Positions 1,444 to 14,291 of a DNA stretch of 20,559 nucleotides are shown one piece after another. Below the pieces are notes generated by a model, which was not told where the DNA came from, made no database searches, and saw only the letters and a list, made by a program, of their open reading frames with translations. Position 1 is the stretch's first letter. Each line of letters begins with the position of its first letter. Position numbers and translations under genes: made by a program. This DNA comes from a virus. Location of the stretch: positions 1 to 20,559 of the IMG/VR virus record IMGVR_UViG_3300035162_003982. The stretch is one strand, 5' to 3'.

Positions 1444-1812
1444 TTATTCGTTAGTAGCCAATATCGCATCAACAACATCCGAGCCAAAAGGCAGCTCACC
1501 TATATCCATTGCCATTATCCTCTGACGTTGTAAATTCCAAAGTCCTGACTGCTTGCCGAACGTCCTGACGAAATTCTTCTTAGATACCGCGATGCTATTC
1601 GGGTTTTCAGTTCCCATGTGTAAATATTCTGGTAAAGGAATAACGAACCAAGTGCCAATTAAAATAGATTCGTGAGTCTTTGGGTGCCGCTGTCGAGACT
1701 TACGTCCTGTGACATGGTGATGCTGAATTGGATAAACAGGGTTCCCTGCTACTGGTCCCCATTTCTCCGTACACTTAGCAATCATCTCATGCCACCGTTG
1801 CTCAGATGTCAT
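1444..1812 (-). CDS. Putative HNH-like phage nuclease
   Basis: This is a 122-aa protein with a histidine cluster (HHHVTGRKSRQ, 31-41), the motif GTWFVIPLPEYLHMG (53-67, H65) and a later NFVRTFGKQSGLWN (80-93). The order of paired His, a strand, then His within a loop resembles the HNH/beta-beta-metal nucleases found among lambdoid nin-region and Ref-like proteins. No cysteine pair for structural zinc is seen. The ATG overlaps the stop of the CmoA-like gene by 4 nt, so the two are probably translationally coupled. Nuclease function is inferred and moderate at best. Confidence 0.5.
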   Translation of the reverse strand: MTSEQRWHEMIAKCTEKWGPVAGNPVYPIQHHHVTGRKSRQRHPKTHESILIGTWFVIPLPEYLHMGTENPNSIAVSKKNFVRTFGKQSGLWNLQRQRIMAMDIGELPFGSDVVDAILATNE

Positions 1813-2468
1813 TTTTTAAACACCACATAAGCAGAAAAATTATAGCTTTTCCAGAATATATGAGGCTCCCCTATTATTCTTAATTCTTTCATAATTTCAC
1901 TCTCTGTTGAGAGCTTCATTGAGTTTATTGTTTGCTGCTGCTTGTCTAATATTTCTTTGTCTGAAAATAACTCTCTTTTGTTTGTTACGTAATTGGTTTG
2001 CGTGACAGACTCCATTCTTGCGTTATTATGATGAACTTTCTCCGCTATAATTAAGCAACCAGTATTAGACAGTTGTTTATTGATTTTCTCAAGCGCACAA
2101 AGCCTTTTTGATCTGGGTAGGAATTGCAGGAAAAAGATAGAGGATATAACCGAACAAGACCCTTCGGGAATGTCTACGTTAAAAAAGTCCTCTCTGGTAA
2201 ACTCTGCCCCTCCCCTTTTACCTTCTTTTAGTAAAGTGCTTGTGTCATATCCAATATACATAGCGTTAGTTTTAGGTATTTCTTCCATCATCTTACCTGT
2301 CGAACACCCATAATCTATTACATAGCTTCCTTCTTCAGTAAAAGCACAAATATAATTCTTTACCTGCTCAACCATAAATTCGTAGTGCATAATGGATAAT
2401 TTAATATGCTCGTCAAAACAATCCTCTTTCCCATCAAACAAAAACTTATTAACTGTTTTCGTGTTCAT
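1809..2468 (-). CDS. CmoA-like carboxy-SAM synthase homologue
   Basis: This 219-aa class I SAM-binding protein resembles E. coli CmoA along most of its length. FDEHIKLSIMHY (18-29) matches the CmoA N-terminal PDMIQRSVPGY stretch. SYVIDYGCSTG (48-58) matches QVYDLGCSLG, IFFLQFLPRSKR (111-122) matches FTLQFLEPSER, IIAEKV (140-145) matches VLSEKF, and the end (W206, YNF 209-211, VVFKK) matches WF.CFNF..LVALK. CmoA converts SAM plus prephenate to carboxy-SAM, normally for tRNA wobble-uridine modification with CmoB. No CmoB is present here; the neighbour, overlapping by 20 nt upstream, is a cytosine-C5 DNA methyltransferase. By hand alignment the CmoA Arg199 that salt-bridges the carboxylate falls at or next to K176-Q177, so cofactor chemistry needs testing. 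AGGGAG lies 8 nt before the ATG. An ordinary methyltransferase derived from CmoA is the alternative. Confidence 0.75.
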   Translation of the reverse strand: MNTKTVNKFLFDGKEDCFDEHIKLSIMHYEFMVEQVKNYICAFTEEGSYVIDYGCSTGKMMEEIPKTNAMYIGYDTSTLLKEGKRGGAEFTREDFFNVDIPEGSCSVISSIFFLQFLPRSKRLCALEKINKQLSNTGCLIIAEKVHHNNARMESVTQTNYVTNKRELFSDKEILDKQQQTINSMKLSTESEIMKELRIIGEPHIFWKSYNFSAYVVFKK

Positions 2469-3432
2469 AGAATTTTCTCCCTATTTCTTCAACAACTGGA
2501 ATTGTGATAGTTCTTCCACATCGCTCCCACCTCTCACCATCAGGAACTAATGATCCGTCTGCATAATATTTTGTGAAGTTATCTGGCAAGCCTTGCAACC
2601 TTTCACACTCAACTGGCGTAAGCCTACGCAAACCTGTGTTTTCTGGGTACTCGATTGCCATTTTATTTTGAGGTGATGTATCTATCGTCCATACATAATC
2701 ACTAAGCCTGTCATTATCAACCATATTAGCTTTGGTGTGCGCTCTCATAGCTATTCTAGCCTTGCCTCCATCATTCACCACATAAGGTCTTGAAGCCCCT
2801 CCTTTTATGTAGTGAGCATCTAAGGTTGGAGAAATGTTGGAGAAAAACCCCTGCCTTTTTCCTTGTTCGTTTTGGTTCTCTCCATTATTCTTTCCACCTG
2901 TTTTGCTGAGAGGAAATATTTTTGGTCTACGTTTTCCTCTAAGACTTCCGCTAATAAATATCCTTTCTCTGTTTTGTGGGACTCCGAAATTCTTGCTGTT
3001 AAGCAACTCCCATTGTACGTCATACCCCAATTCATCCAGACAAGTGATGATGACTCCAAATGTTTTTCCATTGTCATGATTGAGTAATCCTTTGACGTTC
3101 TCAAGGAGAAAAAAAGGTGTTCTTTTATCCCGTAAAATGCGGCAGATTTCAAAAAATAAAGAACCTCGTGTATCTTCTTCATGAAATCCTGTTCTTTTTC
3201 CAGCAATACTAAAAGTTGCGCACGGAAATCCACCACAGAGTAAGTCACCATCTGGGACTTCTGCTGGCTGAATAGATCGGATGTCTCTTGGATCTGGTTT
3301 GTCTTTGAATTGGTATTCATAAATTGACCTCGGTTTATCTAAAATTTCATTACTCCATATTACCTCATGTCCTGCGTTTTCCAGCGCAAGTCTAAAGCCG
3401 CCAATACCTGCAAACAGCTCAATAACTTTCAA
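2449..3432 (-). CDS. Cytosine-C5 DNA methyltransferase with unusual motif X; candidate carboxymethyltransferase
   Basis: This 327-aa C5-cytosine DNA methyltransferase has all main motifs: I (ELFAGIGG, 5-12), IV (GGFPCATFSIAG, 67-78, catalytic Cys71), VI (LLENVKG, 109-115), VIII (QNRERIF, 153-159), a short target-recognition region (about 195-265) and IX (RRLTPVECERLQGLP, 269-283). Motif X reads ERCGRTITIPVV (303-314): Arg307 replaces the nearly invariant Asn of GN(A/S)V, which lies near the transferred group of SAM. The usual PCQ in motif IV is PCA. No restriction partner is adjacent. The start is TTG in a TTGA overlap with the NinB stop, with AAGG 8 nt upstream. The 3' end overlaps the CmoA-like gene. 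A plain solitary methyltransferase is the alternative; the target site is unknown. Confidence 0.93.
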   Translation of the reverse strand: MKVIELFAGIGGFRLALENAGHEVIWSNEILDKPRSIYEYQFKDKPDPRDIRSIQPAEVPDGDLLCGGFPCATFSIAGKRTGFHEEDTRGSLFFEICRILRDKRTPFFLLENVKGLLNHDNGKTFGVIITCLDELGYDVQWELLNSKNFGVPQNRERIFISGSLRGKRRPKIFPLSKTGGKNNGENQNEQGKRQGFFSNISPTLDAHYIKGGASRPYVVNDGGKARIAMRAHTKANMVDNDRLSDYVWTIDTSPQNKMAIEYPENTGLRRLTPVECERLQGLPDNFTKYYADGSLVPDGERWERCGRTITIPVVEEIGRKFYEHENS

Positions 3433-3827
3433 TGTGAATACCTTGGTGCTGGTAACTGCACCCCATGAAACGCCCCTATCTCATAACATCCTTCAATCAG
3501 CTCTGAATACTCGTCCTTGGGTAAGCTGCTCGACTCCATTGGTACAGTGATAGTTCTTTCACCGGGGCATTCAACAGTCTTCTGCCCAATTATGTAAGCC
3601 TTAACCAAAGCCTTAGTTTCACCTTTCCTAAACCCAATCTTATCTCCTAATATTCCACATAGAAGGTGAAAAAAATTCTCCTGTTCTCTGGTCTTATTTT
3701 CTTTGTACGGACGTATCAACACCTCCATCGCTTTATCATCGCAGAGAGTTTTAAACTCAGTAGATTCTAAAAACCTGACTAATCGCTTGAGAATGGTGTC
3801 GTCACGGATTATGTAATTATCAATCAT
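3429..3827 (-). CDS. ninB: NinB-family recombination protein
   Basis: The 132-aa protein matches the NinB (lambda Orf) family in length and motifs: AMEVLIRPYKENKTREQENFFHLLC spans 33-57 with the typical (I/L)xPYKxxRTxEQN-like core, and a C-terminal VPMESSSLPKDEYSELIEGCYEIGA region (95-119) matches the family's GTSxLxxxEMxxLIE..YAxGA end. NinB/Orf proteins bind single-stranded DNA and act as recombination mediators with SSB, replacing host RecFOR. Its place after O- and P-like genes is that of the lambda nin region. It overlaps both neighbours by 4 nt, and GGGAGATAGGTC precedes the ATG. Confidence 0.85.
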   Translation of the reverse strand: MIDNYIIRDDTILKRLVRFLESTEFKTLCDDKAMEVLIRPYKENKTREQENFFHLLCGILGDKIGFRKGETKALVKAYIIGQKTVECPGERTITVPMESSSLPKDEYSELIEGCYEIGAFHGVQLPAPRYSH

Positions 3828-9003: not shown

Positions 9004-9342
9004 TTAATAAAATTCGTTCAAATATAAATTATATTTAACCAGACATCGGAGTATACATTTCTTGTAGCTCCGTCCGTCCTTGTGCCATTTAATTCTGCCC
9101 TGCTCGTTATCAGCCAGCACCTCATAGTCGCTGTTGCTCAGGGTCACAAAGCCCTTCTCTTTCTTCTTAATTTCTGGCGGTAACAGCGAGAGTTTGTCAG
9201 GGTCATTGCAATCACATTGAATGTGGTTGGGTTTTGCTCGGTCCTCTTTCTTCAGCTCATAGTTGACATCTAAAGCCGGAGTTTTAGAAAACCAACTGCA
9301 CCCGGAAATGGACAAGCATAGCAATATGATTACGCAGCGCAT
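9004..9342 (-). CDS. Rz1-like outer-membrane spanin lipoprotein
   Basis: From ATG 9342 the 112-aa protein has a short lipoprotein signal: MRC, a hydrophobic VIILLCLSI run and the lipobox ISGC, with Cys15 as the lipidated residue. The mature part is about 98 aa, longer than lambda Rz1, with a Pro/Lys middle (LLPPEIKKKEKG) and extra cysteines. It lies two genes after the Rz-like gene, at the end of the lysis block, which fits an o-spanin joining inner and outer membranes at lysis. A TTG at 9348 is an alternative start. The last residues of the HNH gene overlap the start. Another phage lipoprotein is possible. Confidence 0.6.
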   Translation of the reverse strand: MRCVIILLCLSISGCSWFSKTPALDVNYELKKEDRAKPNHIQCDCNDPDKLSLLPPEIKKKEKGFVTLSNSDYEVLADNEQGRIKWHKDGRSYKKCILRCLVKYNLYLNEFY

Positions 9343-9797
9343 TTCCAATATTTATTCTCTGCTGACTTACGCTGGCAACACGCTTCAAAAAAATCTTTTG
9401 TGTAGCCTAAATGTACTTCTTCACCACAAACCTTAATCCTGACATACCATTTATTATTTCTATACCTTGAAACGCCTGAGATTCCAGAAGAATTGTTTTT
9501 ACGGATTCTATGATTCCTATTTTGCTCTGTGGGTGTTGCCCACCGACAATTATCTGGCTTATAACTACCCTCATTATCAATTCTATCAATCGAATGGGTG
9601 GGTGTTGGTTTTTCCCCCATATCCTCTAAAAACACCGCGAATGAATCACTCCACTTGTCGCACACAGTAATGCCTCTGCCGCCGTAGTCATGGTATCTAT
9701 TATGGGAAGGATTATGGCATCTCGCTTTCATGTTCCGCCATGAATTATACTCAGGTGTTGCTTTAGCTGATGCCGCGCCATGCTTAAAATTACTCAT
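9330..9797 (-). CDS. HNH homing-type endonuclease with C-terminal AP2 domain
   Basis: This 155-aa protein begins with the HNH module typical of phage homing endonucleases: YNSWRNMKARCHNPSHNRYHDYGGRGITVCDKW, then FLEDMGEKP, SIDRIDNEGSYKPDNCRWATPTEQNRN. D-R-I-D-N and N-C-R-W-A are the catalytic and metal-site regions. The C-terminal part (SSGISGVSRYRNNKWYVRI, then VHLGYTKDFFEAC) is an AP2-type three-strand DNA-binding domain. These are selfish genes that cut alleles lacking them. It lies between the two spanin genes. ATG 9797 makes an ATGA overlap with the Rz-like stop; TTG 9815 is less likely. Confidence 0.9.
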   Translation of the reverse strand: MSNFKHGAASAKATPEYNSWRNMKARCHNPSHNRYHDYGGRGITVCDKWSDSFAVFLEDMGEKPTPTHSIDRIDNEGSYKPDNCRWATPTEQNRNHRIRKNNSSGISGVSRYRNNKWYVRIKVCGEEVHLGYTKDFFEACCQRKSAENKYWKCAA

Positions 9798-10222
9798 GGC
9801 TGTATTGTACTCCAATCTGATAATTTTTCCTCTTGCTTTAGAACGCGCTCAGTCGCTTTCGTAGCCCTGCGTTCAAAGTCGGCAAAGTCTACTTCCAGTT
9901 CCTCGATGCGCCCGGTGATGTCCTTGTCCAGTTCCTTCTGGTACACCGCTGCACTCTGCTTTCGCTCCATGTCCTGAGCCTGGTAGATAGCTTGCAATTC
10001 TTTGTTATGTTCTTTCGTCAACGCCAAGGTAGCTTCCATCTCCTCGGCTCGTGCTGTCTGGTAAGCAAGGTTCTGTTTGTCGGCTAATTTCTCTTTGACC
10101 TCGTTATCGTGCTTAGTCCACATATTACCCCACAGCGTCCCGGCAGTCTTCACCCCAGAGATAAGCAGAAACCCCGCAAGCAAGCCGATGCCTATTTTAA
10201 TTAGTAATCCGTAAGGGATCAT
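9794..10222 (-). CDS. Rz-like inner-membrane spanin
   Basis: A 142-aa protein with one N-terminal membrane anchor (YGLLIKIGIGLLAGFLLISG, 4-23) and then a long charged helix rich in Glu, Lys, Gln and Ala (about 40-135), the i-spanin layout. With an o-spanin it disrupts the outer membrane at the end of lysis. It follows endolysin and holin-like genes and overlaps the upstream 88-aa gene by 4 nt. Identification rests on topology and place, as Rz sequences vary widely. Confidence 0.7.
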   Translation of the reverse strand: MIPYGLLIKIGIGLLAGFLLISGVKTAGTLWGNMWTKHDNEVKEKLADKQNLAYQTARAEEMEATLALTKEHNKELQAIYQAQDMERKQSAAVYQKELDKDITGRIEELEVDFADFERRATKATERVLKQEEKLSDWSTIQP

Positions 10223-13772: not shown

Positions 13773-14291
13773 ATGAGAAATAAAAAACTTCAATCTATGT
13801 ACAACACATGGGCAAACATGATCCAGCGTTGCGAAAACCCAAACCGTAAAGATTACAAGTATTGGGGTGGTCGAGGGATTAAGGTCTGCGAAAGATGGCG
13901 AACCATAAACCCGCGAGGAAAAGGGTTTAAAAACTTTGTTGAGGATATGGGGCAACGCCCACCACAACTAACACTTGATCGTATTGATAATAACGGTAAT
14001 TACACTCCTAAAAATTGTCGTTGGGCAACTCGCAGCGAGCAATGGAAAAACTCCAGAAGTGATATAACACCAGCCGTTCTCGCTCATGCCACCAAACAAA
14101 GAGCTAGAACCCATTGCAAACGAGGTCATGAGTTCACTTCTGAAAATACTTATGTTCATAATAATACAAGAAACTGCAAAACCTGTCGCAGAGCTATGGA
14201 CAGATGGCTTTACTACGATAAAAAAAGACCAATAGAAGAATTTTACTATCCTGCTGGCAAGCCTGGAAGAAAGCCGAAAAATGCTGACTAA
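13773..14291 (+). CDS. HNH homing-type endonuclease with zinc-binding C-terminus
   Basis: This 172-aa protein has the same HNH module as the gene at 9330: [61 protein letters not shown]. Instead of an AP2 domain it ends with [18 protein letters not shown] and NCKTCRR, a Cys/His set (CxxGH...CxxC) likely to bind zinc. It is the only plus-strand gene in the late region and has its own extended -10 promoter. It ends 5 bp from the stop of the convergent ejection gene. No group I intron features were noticed, so it looks like a free-standing mobile gene. Confidence 0.9.

Follow-up and report, generated by a model that had tools for sequence, protein, structure and literature searches.

It is known from Synechococcus phage S-B43 that a phage CmoA together with CmoX, a C5-cytosine methyltransferase (C5-MTase) bearing an arginine, gives rise to 5-carboxymethylcytosine (5cxmC) (Yang et al., Nat Commun, December 2025; PMC12783734). 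The phage CmoA (SpCmoA) produces carboxy-SAM (Cx-SAM), and CmoX (SpCmoX), in which Arg350 replaces Asn304 of HhaI, modifies GC and yields a product that resists HhaI (PMC12783734). In the solved structure (PDB 8YF3) R350 touches the carboxylate of Cx-SAM; the enzyme accepts Cx-SAM only, not SAM, and in E. coli the CmoA of the host was enough for it (PMC12783734). In S-B43 glycine is coupled to 5cxmC by CmoY, an asparagine-synthetase-like amide ligase (PMC12783734). In the same paper 5,615 phage CmoX sequences were catalogued, defined by SPPC together with R350, ParBc was reported near CmoX and SAM depletion was posed as an open question (PMC12783734). Q82 and N304 of HhaI are two conserved pocket residues of motifs IV and X which have been engineered to Ala for bulky cofactors (PMC10666283), and the engineered M.MpeI N374K is cited by Yang et al. 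as accepting Cx-SAM (PMC12783734). Beyond Yang et al., no other report of such a pair was found in the open-access literature, preprints lying outside the search.

The locus described here belongs to IMG/VR entry IMGVR_UViG_3300035162_003982, a virus genome fragment analysed in its complete length of 20,559 bases (the window). With high confidence it is read as a phage pair of CmoA and CmoX, from an HhaI-like branch of its own, that carboxymethylates cytosine in DNA; gene structure, homology, residues, neighbourhood and tree all point this way. The principle itself is not new. A sequence-only reading of the window had proposed that the pair supplies and uses carboxy-SAM to modify DNA cytosine, and this is supported as regards the proposed chemistry, which is the one demonstrated for the S-B43 homologues, and co-occurrence, which is strong, while its novelty has gone, natural examples having been published. 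What is new is an HhaI-like GFPC-A branch of predicted carboxymethyltransferases that the published set does not cover and that, as a rule, lacks the ligase known from S-B43. The window enzyme belongs to a large sister group of the published CmoX, left out by the motif filter of that survey.

The locus and its two enzymes

The features of the locus, all on the minus strand, are as follows.

3429 to 3827, minus strand: NinB/Orf-like recombination mediator, upstream of the MTase (phrog_72, 2.2e-12)
2449 to 3432, minus strand: predicted CmoX-like DNA cytosine C5-carboxymethyltransferase, 327 aa, TTG start, GFPC-A / motif X Arg type (PF00145, 1.3e-73)
3217 to 3222, minus strand: codons for catalytic Cys71 and Ala72 (HhaI C81 and Q82), motif IV GFPCA against the usual GFPCQ
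2512 to 2514, minus strand: codon AGA for motif X Arg307 (HhaI N304, SpCmoX R350 by alignment), predicted contact of the Cx-SAM carboxylate
2449 to 2468, minus strand: overlap of the MTase and cmoA genes, 20 bases (ORF coordinates)
1809 to 2468, minus strand: predicted CmoA-like carboxy-SAM synthase, 219 aa (TIGR00740 3.6e-18; phrog_4752 7.5e-36; fold matches 4iwn, 1im8, 4gek)
1444 to 1812, minus strand: 122-aa ORF downstream of cmoA, ATGA overlap (phrog_1588 at 0.0028 only)

The four ORFs are chained end to start, and the TGA of the NinB/Orf-like gene and the TTG of the MTase overlap as TTGA, the latter start being backed by relatives opening with MKFIELFAG. The claim of two overlapping genes encoding a C5-MTase and a CmoA homologue was borne out, as both are intact, family and structure matches agree, and the 20-base overlap makes their translational coupling likely. 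The 122-aa ORF has no Pfam match and is neither a CmoY nor a ParB homologue, and no second CmoA match occurs in the whole record. Elsewhere in the window two related HNH endonuclease genes (9330 to 9815, minus; 13773 to 14291, plus) match the same PHROGs; one of them lies on the strand opposite to its neighbours, and they are possibly free-standing homing endonucleases.

The MTase matches PF00145 over its full length and TIGR00675 above its cut-off (1e-79), and in PDB it matches M.HhaI at 2.4e-47. Its identity amounts to 34.5% with HhaI and about 26% with SpCmoX, and the profile of its clade recovers HhaI at 2.6e-60 versus SpCmoX (8yf3) at 8.8e-22. The catalytic motifs PC71, E111-N-V and Q153-x-R155-x-R157, shared with M.HhaI and other GFPC-Q/Asn enzymes as the nearest fold and sequence class, are invariant among its relatives. 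The predicted structure (pLDDT 72, the target-recognition region being of low confidence) is best matched by M.HhaI, and also by HaeIII, M.MpeI and, at rank 21, SpCmoX. In contrast to M.HhaI, which carries Gln82 and Asn304, the window enzyme has a cmoA partner, Ala72 after the catalytic Cys and, within the motif X ERC-G-R307-T, an Arg in the column of SpCmoX R350 and HhaI N304, the HhaI sequence having been checked against PDB; the arginine noticed in the sequence-only reading is thereby placed by alignment. Since R307 aligns with R350, the carboxylate contact of SpCmoX, carboxymethyl transfer is favoured, and by analogy with the SpCmoX-Cx-SAM structure R307 is predicted to bind the carboxylate. 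Use of a bulky cofactor is likewise favoured, because the two positions engineered for such cofactors, Q82 and N304, are both changed here. M.MpeI N374K and Q82A/N304A M.HhaI, altered at the same two pocket positions and accepting larger cofactors, are man-made, whereas the Ala and Arg of the window clade are natural and clade-wide.

As in S-B43, a phage CmoA adjoins the C5-MTase, Asn of motif X has given way to Arg in the same column and the Gln after the catalytic Cys is replaced. The C5-MTase fold, the catalytic Cys, the motif X Arg and a nearby cmoA are all found. Motif IV, however, reads SPPC-S in S-B43 CmoX and GFPC-A in the window enzyme and its whole clade, so the published filter, which demands SPPC, would omit it. 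Judged by its sequence, the enzyme appears CmoX-like in its expected mode of action, yet it stands outside the published CmoX set.

The CmoA homologue is, on sequence grounds, a divergent member of its family, with a tree branch of 2.87 and a TIGR00740 score of 66.1 bits against a curated cut-off of 193.3. The proven SpCmoA also falls short of this cut-off, at 115.6 bits, so that the cut-off describes bacterial CmoA. By sequence the closest PDB entries are CmoA of E. coli and H. influenzae, and the nearest proteins of all are phage CmoAs, the proven SpCmoA included, at 29-31% identity. The AF2 model (pLDDT 92, pTM 0.88) has only CmoA structures as its six top PDB matches (TM 0.81-0.84, the three listed above among them), and the SAM-site residues of the E. 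coli enzyme (Y39, D62, G64, S66, D89, D117) are retained in the alignment. Arg199 of E. coli CmoA, which salt-bridges the carboxylate (PMC3663124), is Gln in the window protein and Glu in SpCmoA, and Arg is kept in 2 of 43 sampled. It is not required in phage CmoAs, because the proven enzyme lacks it and so few keep it; its loss is not decisive against activity, and Arg199 was dropped as a diagnostic residue. An Arg one helical turn further on, present in SpCmoA, is missing in the window protein. Many phage CmoAs have an Arg at E. coli position 203; this residue and the basic one in FW(K/R) were weighed as stand-ins for Arg199, and neither proved universal.

Relatives, cmoA partners and origin of the branch

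An IMG/VR scan with the window CmoA alone gave no close relatives, and the MTase was the better bait. Its IMG/VR relatives at 44-60% identity all carry Arg and have an adjoining cmoA, except one at a contig end, and more distant ones carry Asn and are without cmoA. A profile scan with the patterns GFPCATF and QGLPDNF, blind to motif X and cmoA, returned 211 relatives, of which 80 were kept; GFPCATF selects for Ala72 but leaves Arg and cmoA free. To these were added two genome loci that have both, one on a Nanoarchaeota MAG contig and one on a Clostridia MAG contig, and separate control scans were run for GFPC-Q and for SPPC enzymes.

In this IMG/VR sample motif X holds Arg in all 92 genes of the GFPC-A clade (a few duplicates included; 87 loci after removal of known ones), and cmoA lies within 1.5 kb of 90 of them versus 0 of 80 GFPC-Q/Asn relatives; the genes compared are related, so these counts are not independent, and Arg is a single event inside the clade. 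The two genes without cmoA come from one and the same contig, which stops about 15 bases past the gene. Among SPPC/Arg genes cmoA stands beside 64 and is missing in 18 of 82, many of the 18 being short fragments. When whole records of the Asn type were searched, a PHROG 4752 match was seen in 1 of 28, partial and away from the MTase. Neighbour clustering leaves cmoA as the only neighbour conserved across the clade. Co-occurrence of cmoA-like genes with the motif X Arg had been set as a check in the sequence-only reading, and the outcome is strongly in its favour.

In a tree of MTases from which the motif IV and X columns were removed, the GFPC-A/Arg genes, the window among them, are united in one clade with support of 100/94, as are the SPPC genes in a second with 100/100. 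Arg requires two changes on this tree, which suggests a separate origin in the two families, but an AU test does not reject one common CmoX clade (p = 0.40), the SPPC branch being long. In the CmoA tree the partners of the GFPC-A clade are spread over three separate lineages or more: one Erwinia phage-like (99/95), one of 15 members (100/100) and one shared with SPPC-side CmoAs (100/93), in which the window CmoA is a long branch. One MTase branch thus keeps a CmoA partner while swapping the CmoA lineage, which argues for a working link between the two proteins, and the repeated swaps are independent evidence tying carboxy-SAM supply to the GFPC-A branch.

Several other arrangements were seen in the course of this survey. 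In about 42 of 87 GFPC-A loci (for example L106, 1841-3025) the gene after cmoA encodes a ParB_N-domain protein of some 395 aa, which is absent from the window. On the Clostridia MAG contig (L110, 688-3035) tandem C5-MTase ORFs, GFPC-A/Arg and GFPC-T, precede the CmoA homologue. In Staphylococcus phages vB-SscS-F1 (L003, 5485-6492) and SPbeta-like (L004, 4648-5646) cmoA stands beside a C5-MTase with GSPC-Q and a Gly-Gly motif X (DVVGGVIN), a third kind of cmoA partner, without Arg; in vB-SscS-F1 an Asn_synthase-like gene lies between the two. Erwinia phage vB_EamM_Y3 (L277, KY984068.1, about 30.4-32.7 kb) encodes an MTase of the SPPC type, motif X Arg included (ERLGRI), in a 742-residue ORF, with an apparent intein right before the catalytic Cys (DGSPP / CFTENTLIHT...VVHN / CKGFS), about 17 kb from the cmoA and asparagine-synthetase genes of this phage. 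The faecal phage scaffold MT835562.1 (L007, 3917-4711) has a CmoA homologue and no C5-MTase in its 32-kb record; the genes around it code for membrane proteins, an ABC transporter and oxidoreductase-like proteins, and may be host or natural-product genes.

The final base and rival explanations

In the sequence-only reading the pair was taken to give the phage genome a negatively charged cytosine, perhaps as a defence against restriction. In S-B43, however, the carboxyl is a handle for the amide ligase, and no such ligase is seen in the window. A CmoY-like gene adjoins 54 of 82 SPPC genes versus 2 of 92 GFPC-A genes (L065 and L071; Pfam Asn_synthase 1.7e-11 and 6e-12). PF00733 (Asn_synthase) has no match in the 20.6-kb window record, itself a fragment, nor in any of nine GFPC-A records including the window, nor in 18 further ones of 31-70 kb. 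Per whole record the domain is found in 14 of 20 on the SPPC side versus 2 of 20 on the GFPC-A side, those two having been included on purpose; all these records are fragmentary, and the search would overlook a ligase from a different family. Neighbour clustering revealed no clade-wide replacement of CmoY, the ParB-domain gene alone recurring downstream of cmoA. As far as fragmentary records go, the GFPC-A branch thus mostly lacks the ligation step published for S-B43, a further difference from that phage; the window CmoA groups with SPPC-side phage CmoAs. The window system is best read as a variant of CmoA/CmoX, of a kind that probably often leaves bare 5cxmC.

The main question mark over a bare final base is whether 5cxmC is a mere intermediate, coupled to an amine after the manner of CmoY in S-B43 by a ligase whose gene lies in another part of the phage genome or whose family is unrecognised. 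We regard this as a serious possibility, though the less probable course; it bears on the final base and can stand together with the favoured explanation of the pair. The CmoY homologues beside SPPC genes and beside two GFPC-A genes lend it weight, and phages with a related tail gene have about 40 kb, against 20.6 kb for the window fragment, while the scarcity of Asn_synthase in GFPC-A records and the lack of any other recurrent ligase-like neighbour tell against it. The wider scenario, in which the clade arose independently of SPPC CmoX from HhaI-like MTases by changing both pocket residues, gained CmoA several times and leaves unligated 5cxmC as the final base in many environmental phage genomes, is put forward tentatively and, taken as a whole, is less likely than not.

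Other explanations deny the pair its proposed function. An ordinary C5-MTase making 5-methylcytosine beside an unrelated SAM enzyme would fit the full-length PF00145 match, the complete catalytic motifs and the M.HhaI-like fold; it is nevertheless very unlikely, as Asn is found in all Asn-type relatives sampled and Arg throughout the clade, only the Arg type adjoins cmoA, and SpCmoX with the same Arg does not take SAM (PMC12783734). It is just as improbable that the host makes carboxy-SAM and the phage protein performs a later step, for example a CmoM-like methylation of the carboxylate. Such a role would agree with the divergence of the protein, its lack of Arg199 and the sufficiency of host CmoA for SpCmoX in E. 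coli (PMC12783734), yet every family model matched by name is one for CmoA and none is for CmoM, the six top folds are CmoA, the family profile scores CmoA structures best, the gap to whatever follows exceeding 30 orders of magnitude, and the proven SpCmoA lies in the same part of the CmoA tree. Finally, the pair could be aimed at RNA or at host metabolism through SAM depletion, as tRNA is the textbook role of CmoA and depletion was raised for S-B43 (PMC12783734). This is hardly credible given a partner that is a DNA C5-MTase, more akin to HhaI than to DNMT2, which acts on tRNA, and the sole conserved CmoA partner in the clade. The bacterial CmoA/CmoB pathway of tRNA cmo5U has in common with the window a CmoA homologue that supplies carboxy-SAM, whereas here the adjoining partner is the DNA enzyme and the target would be DNA, not tRNA.

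Proposed mechanism and significance

For the favoured CmoA/CmoX pair, what each enzyme catalyses, which base results in the DNA and what that base does are inferred. The CmoA homologue would convert SAM to carboxy-SAM with prephenate of the host, and Cys71 of the C5-MTase would attack C6 of cytosine. Carboxy-SAM would be held by Arg307 in a pocket that Ala72, standing where Gln is usual, opens further, and the carboxymethyl group would be moved to C5, giving 5cxmC in phage DNA, where it would most likely serve as a shield against host nucleases.

If this is true, natural DNA carboxymethylating enzymes extend beyond the SPPC family, and they include enzymes built like HhaI, the framework for which specificity and cofactor engineering are understood best. 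The ligase-poor GFPC-A clade would be the place to seek phage genomes with free, negatively charged 5cxmC, and it would let one ask whether charge alone protects DNA.
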